A stretch of 23,573 bases of DNA from a virus, in the IMG/VR virus record IMGVR_UViG_3300008459_000413, positions 1-23,573 of that record; one strand, written 5' to 3'. Made by a program: the position numbers and the translations under genes. Numbering within the stretch: the first letter of the stretch is position 1; every line of letters starts with the position of its first letter. Positions 7,389-23,573 of this stretch are shown one piece after another. The notes under the pieces were generated by a model. The model saw only the letters and a list, made by a program, of their open reading frames with translations. It did no database searches and was not told the DNA's origin.

Positions 7389-9211
7389 TAACAATTTATT
7401 TTAGCTTTTTTACTAACACTATAAATTATTGGTGTTACATCTGGTATTTGTCTTTTTAAATAAACGAACTTATTAAAATATATATAATTAACACCATTAA
7501 TAAATGGATAGTTAACACCATTATCACCATTTTCAATATAACCTGGCTCTAAAATATCTCTCCATTGATAAGATCTATTAGGTCTTAATTCAGCATCACC
7601 AGGTATACCAATAACTTTGTCACCAATAAAAGCTGTCTCAATAACATCAGAAAATCTTCTTATATATATTTTCTGAAAAGGTTCAAAATAATAACCTTTT
7701 TGTGGGGTATTTGAGTTATCTAATGCAAATCTATGTATTATTTTTGATAACGTTTTTTCTAATAATTCACCTCTATTATATTCAACAAAATCACCAAAAT
7801 ATTCACTACTTTTAGGTATATTTTTTTCAATACTACCGCCACCTGAAGGATTATTTTTAGAAACAACTTCTAATCCTGTAATAGTTGTAGCTACTTTATA
7901 TTGGAAATCCCAATGAGCTGTTACATCAGACCAATTAATATTGTTTTTACCAGACCTTTTGATTGTAGCAAAATATAGTTCTGTTAAATTACCGTTTCTA
8001 TTGGTGAATAGTCCTTCTGTTTCTATATCTTGTGTGAATGTAAACAACCAAGTATCGTTAGCGACACCTAATTTATTATCATTAATTTTTGGGTATATAC
8101 TTTTACCAAAACTAGTAGCTTTGTTTATATCATAATCATTACCAGTAATTAATTTAAATTTTCTAATATAATAATCTGATGGTATACCATCCATTCTCCT
8201 AAATAAAGGTTTCGTTGTACCTATAGGTACATTAACTCCAGGTAATAAACCTGTCCTTAAATCTATTACAAAATTATACCTATCTATTATGTGTTCAACT
8301 CTGTATAATCCGTTTAATAAAGCCGGACCACTTAAAGATCTAATTTCTATATAATCTGACACCCTTAAATTATGTGTTGATGCTGAAAAAGAAGGTGATA
8401 AATTACCTACATTAATCTTAGTATAATTAGCATCATTAAAAGTTATAGTAGTATTACCACTAATATTTGTAGGTGTAGCAGATAATATTTTAATTGGGTT
8501 AACAAAATTTAAATCATCATCTGAAATGTTTATAACCCTTTTTAGTGTTAATTTATTACCATTAGGAACTCCTTTATATGATGTAGTTAAGACTAATTTA
8601 TTTTCTAAAAACTCCCCATCAACACCCAAAGATTGTACTGTGTGATAACCAGTATAATTACTAAAATGTGTGTTACTATAGATATAACAAAGATCACCCT
8701 CAGATAATTTATTTTTTTGTTGTGTATCTATTATTACCTGATTTTTTGTGGCTGACGGGTTGATTGAGGTTAAATTTGAAATACTAATACCTTTATAAGC
8801 CTGATTGTCACCTACATTTGTATACTTATCTGTTTTATAAGGATATAAAATTTGTAAAATCCAATTTTTAGGTTGTATACCATTAATAGGGTCATTGTAA
8901 AGTAAAAAATCCCAATCACTATCGGCTGGGAATGTGGAGATTTTTTTACTACCATTTAAATTATTAACCGTTGAGGCTGTATAAAAAATTGAATTGTCTG
9001 TTATTAAATTTAATCTACCTAATATTCTATATCTAGTAGATTTATTTCTTTCATCACTAAAAACTTGTTCAGCACTAAGTGTCGATATAACTTTATTTAA
9101 GTTATTCTTTAACGGACCAGTAGTATTTTCTAAATGTATTTTATAATTAAAGTCCGTATTTGGAGCTAATTTATATCTAGCTTTACCTATTATTTGTTTA
9201 ATACTATCCAT
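7388..9211 (-). CDS. Baseplate-operon structural protein with two similar beta modules, 607 aa
   Basis: The start ATG 9211 overlaps the gp6-like stop by one base (TAATG). The N-terminus (MDSIKQIIGKARYKLAP) resembles the short leader helices of baseplate adaptor proteins. Two segments look related: 153-212 (LSEGDLCYIYS...YTGYHTVQSL...FLENKLVL) and about 245-320 (LRVSDYIEIRS...LNGLYRVEHI...YNFVIDL). Both follow the pattern 'L..gD.i.I.s....NG.y.V..i....f.l', typical of small beta domains repeated in phage tail proteins. The remainder is unrecognised. It directly follows gp6, so a baseplate-wedge or peripheral baseplate role is inferred. It ends KKAKINC. No membrane segment or catalytic motif is seen. 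Confidence 0.6.
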   Translation of the reverse strand: MDSIKQIIGKARYKLAPNTDFNYKIHLENTTGPLKNNLNKVISTLSAEQVFSDERNKSTRYRILGRLNLITDNSIFYTASTVNNLNGSKKISTFPADSDWDFLLYNDPINGIQPKNWILQILYPYKTDKYTNVGDNQAYKGISISNLTSINPSATKNQVIIDTQQKNKLSEGDLCYIYSNTHFSNYTGYHTVQSLGVDGEFLENKLVLTTSYKGVPNGNKLTLKRVINISDDDLNFVNPIKILSATPTNISGNTTITFNDANYTKINVGNLSPSFSASTHNLRVSDYIEIRSLSGPALLNGLYRVEHIIDRYNFVIDLRTGLLPGVNVPIGTTKPLFRRMDGIPSDYYIRKFKLITGNDYDINKATSFGKSIYPKINDNKLGVANDTWLFTFTQDIETEGLFTNRNGNLTELYFATIKRSGKNNINWSDVTAHWDFQYKVATTITGLEVVSKNNPSGGGSIEKNIPKSSEYFGDFVEYNRGELLEKTLSKIIHRFALDNSNTPQKGYYFEPFQKIYIRRFSDVIETAFIGDKVIGIPGDAELRPNRSYQWRDILEPGYIENGDNGVNYPFINGVNYIYFNKFVYLKRQIPDVTPIIYSVSKKAKINC

Positions 9212-11097
9212 TAAGGTATGCTTAAAGTATCTGTAACAGTAGAACTTCTTTTTACTCTTACTTTTATATCGTTTTCAGGAAATTTTATTTCAAACATAGA
9301 ATCTACTGAACCAAATAAAGCGTAATCTGTTCCTAAATCAATTTGTTTAGAATTATTAAAAGGTATAGGTGATGTTAATGAGGCTGATGGTACAAATCCT
9401 TGTGTTGTGATAGAGTTAAGTGAATATGGTGAACCTATAATATTGTAAACTCTAATGTCTATAATATTTAATACACCACCAACGTTATTGATGTTTTCAA
9501 CCAATTGAGCCATATAAACTGTTTCACCCATTTCCCATTTTTTAATATCAAAATAATTTTTAACTTTATTAATTACATTATTTATAACTTCGGATTGGTT
9601 TACTTGTTTATCTATAAACAAATCTATTTCAAAAGCTAGATTAATAATTCTACCGTCACTAACAACAACATAATCATTAATCATCCTATAATCAGATAAC
9701 CAAGTAGCTATATTTTCTTTTAAAGTATTGGTAGACTGATTGGTTAACTTACCTGAAGTATCCAAACCTAAAGTATATATAGCTATTTTATTTTGTGTTT
9801 CAGTTATTTTATGTCTATATGGTGAACCAAATTTACCAGGTATTTTAGCTAATAGAGCTTCGTAATCTTTAATTGTTACAGCTCTATTTTGTGACGCAAA
9901 ATTATATTTTGTATATTGTCTAATTTGGTCTACAGATGGTACTCCAGAACCACCGATAGCTGGTATAGGGTTATTAACTCTCAAAGACCTAGTTACCGTT
10001 TGGTTACTTTGTGTGTTTGGTCCATTAACATTAATGTTTATATTACCAATACCATTTATTATGTTAGGTCCAACATTACTACTAGGTCCACCACCTACTC
10101 TATATCTTATAAACATAGTTGTATTTGGTTTGGGTATCTCTCCTAAAGCTATAGTATTTATAAAGTCACCTATTTTTATACCACTAGATATTAAATTTTC
10201 TTGTTGTTCTTGGTCGGTACTAATACCACTACCAAAAGTTATTTTACAATAATTGTTATCGGTAAATTCTTTAATAAATTTTCTTGTTGTATGTACATAT
10301 TTCCCAGGTTTTACAGCTTCATTATCACTAGTTCTTGTACTATCTTCAATAAAAACTTTATCTTCCGCCAAAGAATCCATTTCATACCATCTTAAAGTTG
10401 GACTTATGAATTGGTCTATTGTTGGGTTGTTTACATAATTGGTTCCTTCCAAGTTAATTATACTGTCAACAGACAATACGTTTGTATCTGGTAAGAAAAC
10501 TTCTAAAAAAGGTATCGATTCAGATGGGGATACTGTTTTTTTAAATATTTTTGTTAATCCATTAACAACTAATTCTCTTTTAACTATGGTATAATTTTGT
10601 AAAACACCATTATCATCAACATTAGGTAAAATTAATCTATTAGGTACTCCACCAGATGTATATGGTGATGAGAAATCTATATCTTCTAAATTTTCAAATA
10701 CTTGTCCTCCACCAGTTACTTGTGAACCATATCTAATAACAGGAGCATATCTAATATCCCAACTATCACCATAAACAGGTACAACAACTGAATAATCGAC
10801 TAAAGTAATACTAGGTCTTAGTCCTGGTATTTTTAAACCTAATGTTCTAGCTATAGCTAGAATATTTTTTCTTTCTTGGGCATAATCAATAAAAGTTTCA
10901 TTAAACATTCTATCTGTATGATAAGATAACATATCACCAACAGCAGCATTTAAATCTACTAACATCTGACCTACAGATGCATCATTAAAATCAGAGAATA
11001 CTTCTGGATAATATAATTTAATAAAATTAACTAATTCTGACCTTACATCAGCGAAATTTCTAGCAAAATAATTTATTTTTTTACTTTGTGTTGCCAT
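9211..11097 (-). CDS. Baseplate wedge protein, gp6 / P2 gpJ-like
   Basis: This 628 aa protein is the core wedge subunit of contractile tails. In T4, two gp6 copies and one gp7 form the trifurcation unit that opens the baseplate on contraction. The N-terminus carries the family signature: a helix ending in YYPEVFSDF, then DASVGQMLVDLNAAVGDMLSYHTDRMFNETFI (about 39-70). Near 400, NRAVTIKDYEALL is the typical 'RAvT..Dye.l' segment of Baseplate_J proteins, followed by an alpha/beta domain. The length is close to that of T4 gp6 (about 660 aa). It starts at ATG 11097, 13 nt after the gp25 stop, the same order as W-J in P2-like phages. Confident in family, less so on exact T4 orthology. Confidence 0.88.
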   Translation of the reverse strand: MATQSKKINYFARNFADVRSELVNFIKLYYPEVFSDFNDASVGQMLVDLNAAVGDMLSYHTDRMFNETFIDYAQERKNILAIARTLGLKIPGLRPSITLVDYSVVVPVYGDSWDIRYAPVIRYGSQVTGGGQVFENLEDIDFSSPYTSGGVPNRLILPNVDDNGVLQNYTIVKRELVVNGLTKIFKKTVSPSESIPFLEVFLPDTNVLSVDSIINLEGTNYVNNPTIDQFISPTLRWYEMDSLAEDKVFIEDSTRTSDNEAVKPGKYVHTTRKFIKEFTDNNYCKITFGSGISTDQEQQENLISSGIKIGDFINTIALGEIPKPNTTMFIRYRVGGGPSSNVGPNIINGIGNININVNGPNTQSNQTVTRSLRVNNPIPAIGGSGVPSVDQIRQYTKYNFASQNRAVTIKDYEALLAKIPGKFGSPYRHKITETQNKIAIYTLGLDTSGKLTNQSTNTLKENIATWLSDYRMINDYVVVSDGRIINLAFEIDLFIDKQVNQSEVINNVINKVKNYFDIKKWEMGETVYMAQLVENINNVGGVLNIIDIRVYNIIGSPYSLNSITTQGFVPSASLTSPIPFNNSKQIDLGTDYALFGSVDSMFEIKFPENDIKVRVKRSSTVTDTLSIP

Positions 11098-11110: not shown

Positions 11111-11515
11111 TTAAATTGTTAAAGTAACAAAGTCTACTTTATTTAAAGCACCTTCAGTCACCACATAATCCACACGAACTACAGCAGTATGTTCAGACCT
11201 ACTCCCATACTCATTTTCTTCTGGTTTATCAACTGTTAAAGTTGTAATAATTAAATTTGGTATAAATTTACTAACAGCTGTTTGTATTTCAGTTTTAATA
11301 CTCTCTCTAGTACTATTGTCATTTGGTTCAAAAATATATTGTCTTAAATTAGTCCCAAAGTCTGGTAAGTATAATCTTTCACCAGGTGTAGTTAACAATA
11401 AATGAAGTAAATCGGATTTAATTACATCATAACTATTTTTATTCATTTCTAAAAAATAGTTCTTAACTTCATCATCTCTAAAGGGAAACGCTATGTTTAT
11501 AAATCTTTCGGCCAT
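11111..11515 (-). CDS. Baseplate wedge protein gp25 / gpW-like
   Basis: This 134 aa protein is of the usual gp25/gpW family length (T4 gp25, 132 aa). The diagnostic core is LLLTTPGERLYLPDFGTNLRQYIFEP (about 39-64, with PGER, P-FG and L..YIFEP). This is the lysozyme-like family segment that anchors the wedge around the hub and nucleates the sheath-baseplate interface. Start ATG 11515 is preceded by an A-rich leader with no Shine-Dalgarno. It is the first gene of the baseplate operon and lies just downstream of a TAnnTTTG-type promoter and the nrdA terminator. The gp6-like gene follows after 13 nt. Despite old naming, there is no reason to expect free lysozyme activity. Confidence 0.92.
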   Translation of the reverse strand: MAERFINIAFPFRDDEVKNYFLEMNKNSYDVIKSDLLHLLLTTPGERLYLPDFGTNLRQYIFEPNDNSTRESIKTEIQTAVSKFIPNLIITTLTVDKPEENEYGSRSEHTAVVRVDYVVTEGALNKVDFVTLTI

Positions 11516-21216: not shown

Positions 21217-21621
21217 TTATTCTATAATTTTCTTTTTTAGATTTAAAATATCTAATTCATTATTTTTAATTAATATTATAACATTCTCATATTTACTCCA
21301 ATCCAATTCATAATCAGAATATTTTACATTACCGAAATCTAAATTGAAATCTTTCTCTATTAATTTATTTAAAGCATTTATCGTAAAAAAAGTACTACCT
21401 TTTTTATGTATCTGTACTGTTTTGGGTAATTCTTTTTTTATATCTATTTTTTGATCTAATTCTAGATATATTTTATATGTTAATAATAAATCTTCTGTAT
21501 CTGTTTCAAACATAAAAACAGATTTCTTTTTTACACCAAAAGTTTTGTATATTTTGTAAAGAAATTTATCTAAATAAGATGGACTAACAAATGTCGCTAC
21601 TAATATTATTTTTTTTTGCAT
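21217..21621 (-). CDS. Unknown phage protein, 134 aa
   Basis: It starts at ATG 21621, 38 nt inside the end of the 188 aa gene, and just before an A9 run. The N-terminus is a hydrophobic strand (KKIILVATFV) followed by helix. The C-terminal half has GSTFFTINALNKLIEKDF and DWSKYENVIILIKNNELDIL. The pattern 'T(F/Y)(F/Y)TINALN..I' with a later 'W..Y.n.iil' looks familiar from small T4-like phage proteins of unknown function. There is no signal peptide or convincing membrane helix. The role is unknown. Confidence 0.6.
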   Translation of the reverse strand: MQKKIILVATFVSPSYLDKFLYKIYKTFGVKKKSVFMFETDTEDLLLTYKIYLELDQKIDIKKELPKTVQIHKKGSTFFTINALNKLIEKDFNLDFGNVKYSDYELDWSKYENVIILIKNNELDILNLKKKIIE

Positions 21622-22150
21622 TTAAATAGGGGATGTATTTTATATCAATGTCACCAATAATTTTAGGTATTTCATTGTATTCTTTCATTGTTATTAGTTG
21701 TTTAATTTCATCTATTATATCCCAAGACATAAAAGATAAAAGACTTAAATCTATGTGGTTTATTATATTACCACAATAAATGTAAAGTCTATTTGAATAT
21801 AAATATCCGTCACAACCAGTAACGTTCCCTTTAACAAAATTTAAATAATCCCATCTAGTCTCAAATTCTAATGGGTTTAAATTATTTATCTTAATATTTG
21901 TAATAATTTCATTTAAAGCTTCATGTAGAAAAGAATTTATATGCTCTTCAAATACTTTTCTTTTTTCATTAGGTGAAAAAGTCCAATATAAATTTTCTTT
22001 AATTTTATGATTTAATATTGAACCTCCTTTATTTTTAGCTAAATCCCAACCAACAATAATTTCAATAATACCATCATCAAATGACATCACCTCTGTCATA
22101 TATGGTTTTACCAATTCAATATCATTTGTAGTTATTTTAACTAATTTCAT
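21584..22150 (-). CDS. Unknown phage protein, 188 aa
   Basis: It starts at ATG 22150 and overlaps the next gene by 38 nt. The protein appears globular alpha/beta: an acidic N-terminal part (SFDDGIIEIIVGWDLAKNKGG), a helical middle (EEHINSFLHEALNEIIT), a Cys/Tyr-containing strand region (GCDGYLYSNRLYIYCGN), and a helical C-terminal part. It has three cysteines and no recognised metal motif, signal peptide or membrane segment. No family is recognised. It is the first gene after the decayed stretch at 22190-22361 and probably begins a new transcript. Confidence 0.58.
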   Translation of the reverse strand: MKLVKITTNDIELVKPYMTEVMSFDDGIIEIIVGWDLAKNKGGSILNHKIKENLYWTFSPNEKRKVFEEHINSFLHEALNEIITNIKINNLNPLEFETRWDYLNFVKGNVTGCDGYLYSNRLYIYCGNIINHIDLSLLSFMSWDIIDEIKQLITMKEYNEIPKIIGDIDIKYIPYLNAKKNNISSDIC

Positions 22151-22154
22151 ATAA

Positions 22155-22162
22155 CAAATATA
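22155..22162 (-). promoter_or_regulatory. TAnnTTTG box immediately before the 188 aa gene
   Basis: The minus strand reads TATATTTG, an exact fit to the Bacteroidota -7 consensus, four nt before ATG 22150. If used, the transcript would be almost leaderless. No -33 TTTG is visible at the usual 19-21 nt, so this is weak support. Confidence 0.28.
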
Positions 22163-22189
22163 AACATTAAAAATAAAATAATCTATATT

Positions 22190-22361
22190 TTACACTTTTG
22201 GTTTATTTTTAACTAAAGATTTTGATGACATAAATGATTCTATGTATTTATGGTAACCACTACCATAGAAAGTTACAGATTATCACATAAAGTATAAGTT
22301 CTTTAGGTATTTGTGCTTAACGAAAATTATTATTACCAGCAGGAATTTTATCAAAATTACC
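22190..22361 (-). pseudogene. Decayed C-terminal coding remnant
   Basis: This is the 211-bp gap between two genes. Reading straight on past the TAG of the upstream gene, the frame gives GNFDKIPAGNNNFR, then TAA (22317-22319), then AQIPKELILYVI. After a change of frame, 25 codons follow (YGSGYHKYIESFMSSKSL...KPKV) that end in TAA at 22190-22192. Both halves read like real protein. The likeliest history is a C-terminal domain, or a separate downstream gene, broken by a stop mutation, a frameshift and probably an internal deletion. I cannot name the domain. The stretch also holds a 7-bp inverted repeat (22249-22267) with no T-run. Confidence 0.45.
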
Positions 22362-23573
22362 CTAAATATTATTACTAATAGTAGGTTCTATCGGTTGTTG
22401 TACTGTTGGTTGTGTTGATATTTCAGTTAAAGCTATGTCTAATAAACTTAAAGCTTCTGTAACTACTGGTATAGTAATCCTAGGTTGTCTCATACCAGTA
22501 AATTCAGTTTTAATGTTATGTGGTGTTATTGTATGTTTAACACCCATTATTAAATAAGTACCTCTAAACATTGGTACATTTTCTAATTTAAAGTACATTA
22601 GTGGTTGTATTGCCATATTTCCTAAACCTGAAACTGTACAATTATACGACCTAGTCAAATAAAGATCATACATATTATTACCTTTACCTATTTTATTAGG
22701 GTTAGAACCACTATTAGGATTATTCATAGAATCTATTATTTGTAAAGATTCTTGTGTTTCTTTAAACTCGGTTTGATCTAACTCTATTGAGTTAAAATGA
22801 TTTTGTGCCTCTTGTCCATATCTAACTTTAAAAGCCACAATACCTTCATTGTTTGAACTATATTCTGATGGCCAATCTGAGGTTTGTGATATATCAAAAG
22901 AATCATCATTATAATAAAAACCACCACCATTGTTAACACAAATATTACTTCCACTATTTAAATCAGCTAAACTTCTAGAACTACCACCAATATAAACACA
23001 TACGAAAGTAGGTCCTGGTTCTATATTTTTAACAAAATTTAATGGTCTAAATATATCTTTAACATCTTCTTCACTCATTGATTGAGTAGATAAATTTATA
23101 TTAGCTGGTAAAGGCCAAAAATCAAAATTATTTTTACTTAAAACACCTGTTAAAGATTCGTATAAAGATTGTGTTGGTCCTTGTCCATTTTGTTTATTAG
23201 CTAGATTAGATAAATAAGAAAAATCTATTACAGCCTTTTTACCAACATCCTGATTAGCTCTATTAATAAATTTAAAATGTTCAAATAATAATCTATCATT
23301 ATCTTTACCATAATTATTATAAAAATAACCATTCGTAACTCCATTTGGGGTTTCTGAATTTGAAATCCATTTATCATACAAAGATTTAAATGACCTATAT
23401 AAAGATAATTTAACATCAAAATCGTCCATACCAGATTCTAAAGAATCTAAACCACTATTTTCATTAATAGCAGATTCTTTAACTTTTTCAATATTATCGG
23501 TTATAGCTTGAATAAATCCATCAACATAATAATTTAATTCTTCTTCAGATATGTAAAAATTTTCACCAAAATC
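22362..23573 (-). CDS. Tail hub-like virion structural protein (partial, N-terminus beyond window)
   Basis: The frame is open from the right edge (DFGENFYISEEEL...) and ends at TAG 22362, so at least 403 residues are present and the true start lies outside. An internal Met at 23429 is not the start, since the frame continues upstream with good coding sequence. The C-terminal part contains YNCTVSGLGNMAIQ, MYFKLENVPMFRGTYLIMGVKHTITPHNIKT, then EFTGMRQPR. The pattern 'f.G.Y.i..v.H.i....i.T...g.r' is typical of the last domain of tail hub or late-control-D-type proteins (gp27/gpD-like). It ends with a Pro/Thr/Gln-rich tail (STQPTVQQPIEPTISNNI). A hub or tail-spike adaptor role is inferred. The coding-like sequence after the stop suggests the protein once had a longer C-terminus. 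Confidence 0.55.
   Translation of the reverse strand, partial: DFGENFYISEEELNYYVDGFIQAITDNIEKVKESAINENSGLDSLESGMDDFDVKLSLYRSFKSLYDKWISNSETPNGVTNGYFYNNYGKDNDRLLFEHFKFINRANQDVGKKAVIDFSYLSNLANKQNGQGPTQSLYESLTGVLSKNNFDFWPLPANINLSTQSMSEEDVKDIFRPLNFVKNIEPGPTFVCVYIGGSSRSLADLNSGSNICVNNGGGFYYNDDSFDISQTSDWPSEYSSNNEGIVAFKVRYGQEAQNHFNSIELDQTEFKETQESLQIIDSMNNPNSGSNPNKIGKGNNMYDLYLTRSYNCTVSGLGNMAIQPLMYFKLENVPMFRGTYLIMGVKHTITPHNIKTEFTGMRQPRITIPVVTEALSLLDIALTEISTQPTVQQPIEPTISNNI

Follow-up and report, generated by a model that had tools for sequence, protein, structure and literature searches.

A coding remnant beside the last gene of the window

The window analysed here is the whole of an IMG/VR virus record, 23,573 bases long. 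The final gene lies on the minus strand and is a predicted tail-hub core gene (22362-23573) with 403 codons visible; the reading frame is open at the window edge, beyond which any upstream hub copies would lie. The gene stops at TAG (22362-22364), 18 residues past the core, and TAG ends 4 of the 20 listed genes with a stop in view, the hub included. The next gene 3' of the hub, also on the minus strand (21584-22150), encodes a conserved 188-aa protein to which no function is assigned; it also lies directly 3' of the hub gene in L002, L003, L007 and L008. The hub TAG and the 188-aa gene are 211 bases apart.

Most of that interval reads as coding sequence. Past the TAG, the hub frame runs as GNFDKIPAGNNNFR, a TAA (22317-22319) and AQIPKELILYVI, 27 codons including the TAA (half 1; 22281-22361, minus strand), and a different frame then gives VTFYGSGYHKYIESFMSSKSLVKNKPKV, 28 codons (22193-22276) closed by a stop at 22190-22192 (half 2; 22190-22276 with its stop, minus strand). 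The two are joined by a deletion junction with a change of frame (22271-22280, minus strand) that overlaps the first two codons of half 2. Rereading the sequence bore out the initial annotation on the two frames and on the coordinates of the TAG and the TAA. Half 1 is in frame with the hub and begins at a domain boundary, directly past the 18-residue linker, and no in-frame ATG, GTG or TTG and no N-terminal extension was found on reading the sequence between linker and half 1. A minus-strand spacer of 39 bases (22151-22189) separates the remnant's stop from the start codon of the 188-aa gene. The same spacer measures 21-81 bases in nine relatives' loci, and 37-54 bases in seven of them, in a set where L002 and L025 are identical in sequence at this point and where L032, L034, L036 and L038 have a gene other than the hub itself immediately upstream. 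The region was also searched for a terminator or a known RNA, and none was found. The remnant is known from one genome.

The gene is predicted to encode a baseplate hub

Relatives of the hub core were found at 8 IMG/VR loci (78-57% identity), and an alignment query with the core returned 15 loci, these 8 among them; sequence comparison of the core with solved structures gave no match. A first AlphaFold model built from 5 sequences had a pLDDT of 30 and was set aside, and a second from 22 sequences reached moderate confidence (pLDDT 55, pTM 0.54). For this model, every one of the ten top-ranked structures (Z 9.4 to 8.0) comes from a baseplate, either of a phage or of a contractile injection system, and several have hub, cell-puncturing device or central spike in the title. 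Model residues 91-371 match baseplate entries from contractile injection systems, pyocin R2, T4, P1 and Mu (Z 9.4 to 7.9), in a type of comparison that often gives best Z values of 7 to 8. Foldseek alone returned nothing from the PDB at E <= 0.001 (best E 2.5e-3), and in the set of predicted viral proteins the top named structural match was a myovirus 'Lysozyme' (3.1e-26), with hub subunits ranking lower. Two further window genes, at 9211-11097 and 11111-11515, match baseplate wedge families. Because many baseplate structures agree and two wedge homologues lie in the same window, assignment of the gene to a baseplate hub fold of the gp27/gpD/VgrG type is supported at the level of a predicted model, and the 'hub-like' label given to it from the letters alone is backed by structure comparison.

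Related hubs carry exchangeable enzyme domains

The window core is the counterpart of the last ('C') hub copy of its relatives. In L002, L003 and L007 this gene runs in frame into Phage_lysozyme2 (2e-20, 2.1e-20 and 1.4e-16), and the orthologues with a tail lysozyme at the place of the remnant are 78-60% identical to the window hub, which itself has no match to this family (PF18013). The initial annotation had suggested that a virion protein had lost a C-terminal domain; the presence of an enzyme domain at the same point in relatives speaks for that suggestion. L002 and L003 carry one more domain, by eye SGNH-esterase-like, past the lysozyme, and the L008 hub has a different C-terminus with no Pfam match over cut-off. 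Other hub paralogues and homologues end in VanY, Phage_lysozyme2, Amidase_2 or Glyco_hydro_25 (GH25) over Pfam cut-offs; no C-terminal family passed cut-off in L012 copy B or in L021, where an M23 domain was read by eye and Pfam reported none. The pattern of the group is therefore a hub core, a short linker and then, mostly, an exchangeable enzyme domain. One naked hub tail is present, L017 copy B (L017:5506-6897), which extends 43 residues past the core. A separate 313-aa gene (L017:6916-7854) comes after it; this gene is CHAP-like by eye and has no Pfam match at E <= 0.1.

A tree of 17 hub cores places the window with L010 copy C, and L012 copy C as sister to the pair, both forks with support of 100/99. 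Two sequences show the lysozyme end: L012 copy C, which was read from the same contig under the handle L003, and L002. Up to the point where the L010 contig breaks off, L002 copy C and L010 copy C are equal by eye. Since L012 copy C and L002 retain it, the simplest reading is that the lysozyme end was lost on the branch of the window.

Several relatives carry hub C-terminal halves in tandem: two in L016 and L017, three in L010 and L012, and tandem halves also in L207 and L208. The L010 copies end in VanY, in Phage_lysozyme2 and in a lysozyme-type end cut by the end of the contig, and those of L016 in Amidase_2 and Phage_lysozyme2. A trio of copies inherited by all lineages was considered and rejected: the tree pairs L016 B with L016 C and L017 B with L017 C, so duplication or gene conversion was lineage-specific. 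Three genes, each lying immediately upstream of tandem copies (L207:8773-13944, L208:9506-14581 and L016:1308-2699), combine a part that resembles the hub N-terminus by eye with an intein/Hint-like end. Matches to Intein_splicing (1.4e-6) and Hint (2.9e-5) in L207 fall under cut-off, Vint in L016 (7.1e-8) is over cut-off, and AXH is over cut-off in L207 and L208; a split or ligated hub is possible. The hub core of L020, L034, L035, L038 and L206 lies inside one long ORF of 1982-2804 aa.

The remnant matches both ends of a DSP-like domain

Half 1 resembles what we take to be the start of dual-specificity (DSP-type) phosphatases, a likeness that prompted the search for them. A degenerate pattern drawn from half 1 led to two contigs encoding a single 242-aa protein with matches to both halves. 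This route to the DSP family used the remnant itself and is to that extent biased; to counter the bias, loci were gathered by the active-site pattern HCxHGxDRTG alone, which gave at least 120 stretches. The main profile was built by phmmer from L137 without use of the remnant motif (43 ORFs recruited, 32 retained), omitting duplicates and the pattern-found L039, L040 and L159; the seed L137 had itself been chosen after matching both halves. A search of all six frames across the entire window with this profile gave only two matches, and these are collinear: 22290-22409 for half 1 (14.0 bits, model positions 42-79) and 22199-22288 for half 2 (3.1 bits, model positions 203-231). In 100 dinucleotide-preserving shuffles of the window, the best score per window had a median of -4.7 bits and a maximum of 2.1 bits. 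The half 2 match is weak by itself and draws its weight from its adjacency to half 1, the order of the two and the distance to the C-terminus. An earlier profile gave E values of 9e-6 and 0.008 among 781 window segments, and is biased for half 1 because its members had been picked with the N-terminal motif.

Single proteins in L117, L155 and L039 match both halves. The initial annotation held that its reading would fall if relatives had no protein matching both; comparison with relatives gave the opposite. Among 38 further DSP loci (E <= 0.05), half 1 matched in 26, half 2 in 17 and both in 16. The best matches to half 1 are in L186 and L187 (67% over 27 columns), neither of which matches half 2, and the best match to half 2 is in L183 (59% over 22 columns); many DSPs are without the half 2 motif. 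Other searches were empty: tblastn of the hub, half 1 and the L039 DSP in a phage collection, Pfam with both halves, and the remnant query in 19 hub-family records gave no match; the remnant query in viral contigs gave 26 pattern stretches, none of them confirmed; and genome contigs gave no confirmed match to either the hub or the DSP profile.

The spacing of the two motifs shows what lies between the halves in intact proteins. In all 15 intact DSP proteins showing both motifs these are 136-139 residues apart, against 18.3 codon equivalents in the window; about 120 codons have therefore been lost, and the active-site loop with them. In agreement, the HCx5R loop is absent from the window, with no profile match for model positions 80-202. 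The window has 26 residues from the FxGSG motif to the end, within the span of 23-29 measured in 14 of the 15 intact proteins; the fifteenth (L143) is truncated where its locus stops and gives no end distance. At the level of sequence profiles, these results establish the two stretches as the ends of one predicted DSP/PTP-like domain whose middle is missing. The initial annotation had described a coding-like tail with a frameshift. The coding remnant stands; one continuous tail with a simple change of frame does not, with about 120 codons missing between its halves.

Viral DSP-like proteins are divergent and in some cases joined to cell-wall domains

Intact viral relatives of the remnant carry the HCxHGxDRTG loop. 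Against known families they score weakly: the best of 11 viral proteins scores 26.5 bits with Pfam DSPc, below the cut-off of 33.5 bits; the Y_phosphatase3 cut-off is barely passed, by L172 only (22.3 against 22.2 bits); and matches to DSP/PTP structures are weak and lie mainly at the catalytic loop (best E 0.0086). The domain is joined to PG_binding_1 (just under cut-off) in L172 and to Peptidase_M23 and PG_binding_1 (both well over cut-off) in L178, which makes a predicted role at the cell wall plausible.

A hub homologue is also present in 3 of 26 DSP-bearing records. Two of these three, L205 and L206, each hold 9 of the 20 searched window genes, in the same order and at up to 90% identity, so the DSP family occurs in phages related to the window; in L205 the DSP is encoded separately, just before a homologue of a window baseplate wedge gene. 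The hub core was found in none of 124 motif-carrying DSP ORFs (best E 1.2) and in none of the 38 further DSP loci. Conversely, no DSP was returned from the 19 hub-family records, an empty answer that, for that search, carries no weight, and Pfam DSPc matched 0 of the 19.

Runs of adjoining and otherwise unlike small genes in L172, L175, L179 and L180 share an N-terminal stretch resembling 'MNLxESIRRILREE' or 'MKxLIRxILKEE' by eye, with which the DSP proteins of L172 and L175 begin similarly; it is perhaps a targeting tag. L040 and L183, virus contigs with gene content resembling, by eye, that of tailless membrane phages, also hold this DSP, there with an N-terminal hydrophobic stretch and near apparent structural genes.

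Probable origin and decay of the domain

We consider it probable that this hub lost its lysozyme-type end and gained a DSP/PTP-like domain, which then decayed. In the lineage of the window, the inherited lysozyme-type C-terminus would have been swapped for an in-frame domain of the DSP/PTP-like, cysteine phosphatase fold. An internal deletion of about 120 codons would then have removed the active-site loop and shifted the frame, and the TAG and then the TAA would have arisen in the hub frame, the TAG being, we infer, a lesion rather than an old stop. With these stops in frame, the protein now ends 18 residues past the core, and the hub core, still open, presumably builds a tail tip that lacks this enzyme. 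The sequence of events and any effect on the virion are our reconstruction.

Two layouts were weighed, a domain within the hub and a neighbouring gene. A small separate DSP gene may have stood between the hub and the 188-aa gene, and lost its start and its middle, so that its ends were left behind a hub for which the TAG was already the stop. In favour of such a gene, no intact DSP ORF was seen with a hub core, L205 keeps its DSP as a gene of its own elsewhere while having a hub homologue, and a short naked hub tail does exist in L017 copy B. Half 1, however, lies in the hub frame at a domain boundary, with no start codon or N-terminal extension before it, and near relatives hold a fused enzyme in the same slot, so that we regard a separate gene as unlikely. 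Fusion is favoured instead by a junction that keeps the hub frame at a domain boundary, by the absence of a start codon in that frame and by a 3' spacing like that of relatives, and the domain had probably been joined to the hub. The main gap in the case is that neither an intact fusion nor a DSP in the 19 hub-family records was seen, and because no intact hub-DSP fusion was found we infer the fusion from the layout of the locus.

An assembly or sequencing artefact over a gene intact in the real virus deserves thought for an assembled record with the gene at its end, but it would require two stops and the loss of about 120 codons within 170 bases while the 20 other listed genes are open; we judge it very unlikely. 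Programmed readthrough or frameshifting to an extended hub, also raised in the initial annotation, takes its appeal from the continuation of the frame past the TAG. It is made highly improbable by the TAA 14 codons on, the change of frame that follows, the missing active-site region, the ordinary RNA folding of the region (z 0.34) and the use of TAG as terminator by other window genes. TAG recoding was considered too, and rejected. Chance coding-like intergenic sequence is conceivable for short fragments in an A+T-rich region; two collinear profile matches that each beat the best of 100 shuffled windows leave it scarcely any room. A further reading, in which the remnant descends directly from the lysozyme or SGNH-like end of relatives, was likewise rejected: neither half had a convincing match there.

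Implications and comparison with known systems

If the DSP-like domain was fused to the hub, it would have come into contact with the host envelope during injection. In other proteins the domain is paired with peptidoglycan-binding and M23 domains, which suggests a substrate in the wall or at the surface. The other hub copies of relatives do carry enzymes, and infection would not have to stop on loss of one domain if such copies were also present here. More tentatively, the hub of the group may be a multi-payload device, composed of a Hint-ended N-terminal chain and two to three tandem halves with varied, largely wall-active enzymes, from which a cysteine-phosphatase payload is being discarded in this lineage; if so, one virion could bear several tip enzymes. 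On the main reading, the locus shows turnover of a tail-tip enzyme in steps that a tree can order, from a lysozyme-type end (relatives) through a phosphatase-like remnant (window) to nothing, and a phosphatase-type domain in the hub slot would broaden the range of tail-tip chemistry. Among the titles listed by narrow searches of the open-access literature, none concerned a phosphatase-type tail-hub domain.

In T4, a cell-wall enzyme belongs to the baseplate hub. The predicted window hub is like the T4 gp27/gp5 type in fold, matching 1k28 chain D, which we take to be gp27 (Z 8.8, rmsd 5.2 over 165 residues), and in its association with a wall enzyme, which in relatives of the window is on the same chain as the hub. 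It differs from gp27/gp5 in that the enzyme of those relatives is an exchangeable C-terminal extension of the hub core, lost in the window, and from solved hubs generally in having no sequence match to them. The PF18013 hubs of L002, L003 and L007 are closer, being orthologous genes with the same downstream gene, but they keep their enzyme, whereas the window has the remnant of another domain type. The viral relatives of the remnant resemble cysteine phosphatases of the DSP/PTP-like kind (DSPc, Y_phosphatase3) in their HCxHGxDRTG loop and in their weak matches in Pfam and the PDB; unlike these relatives, the window is without the loop, and the viral domain is divergent, nearly always falling under Pfam cut-offs.
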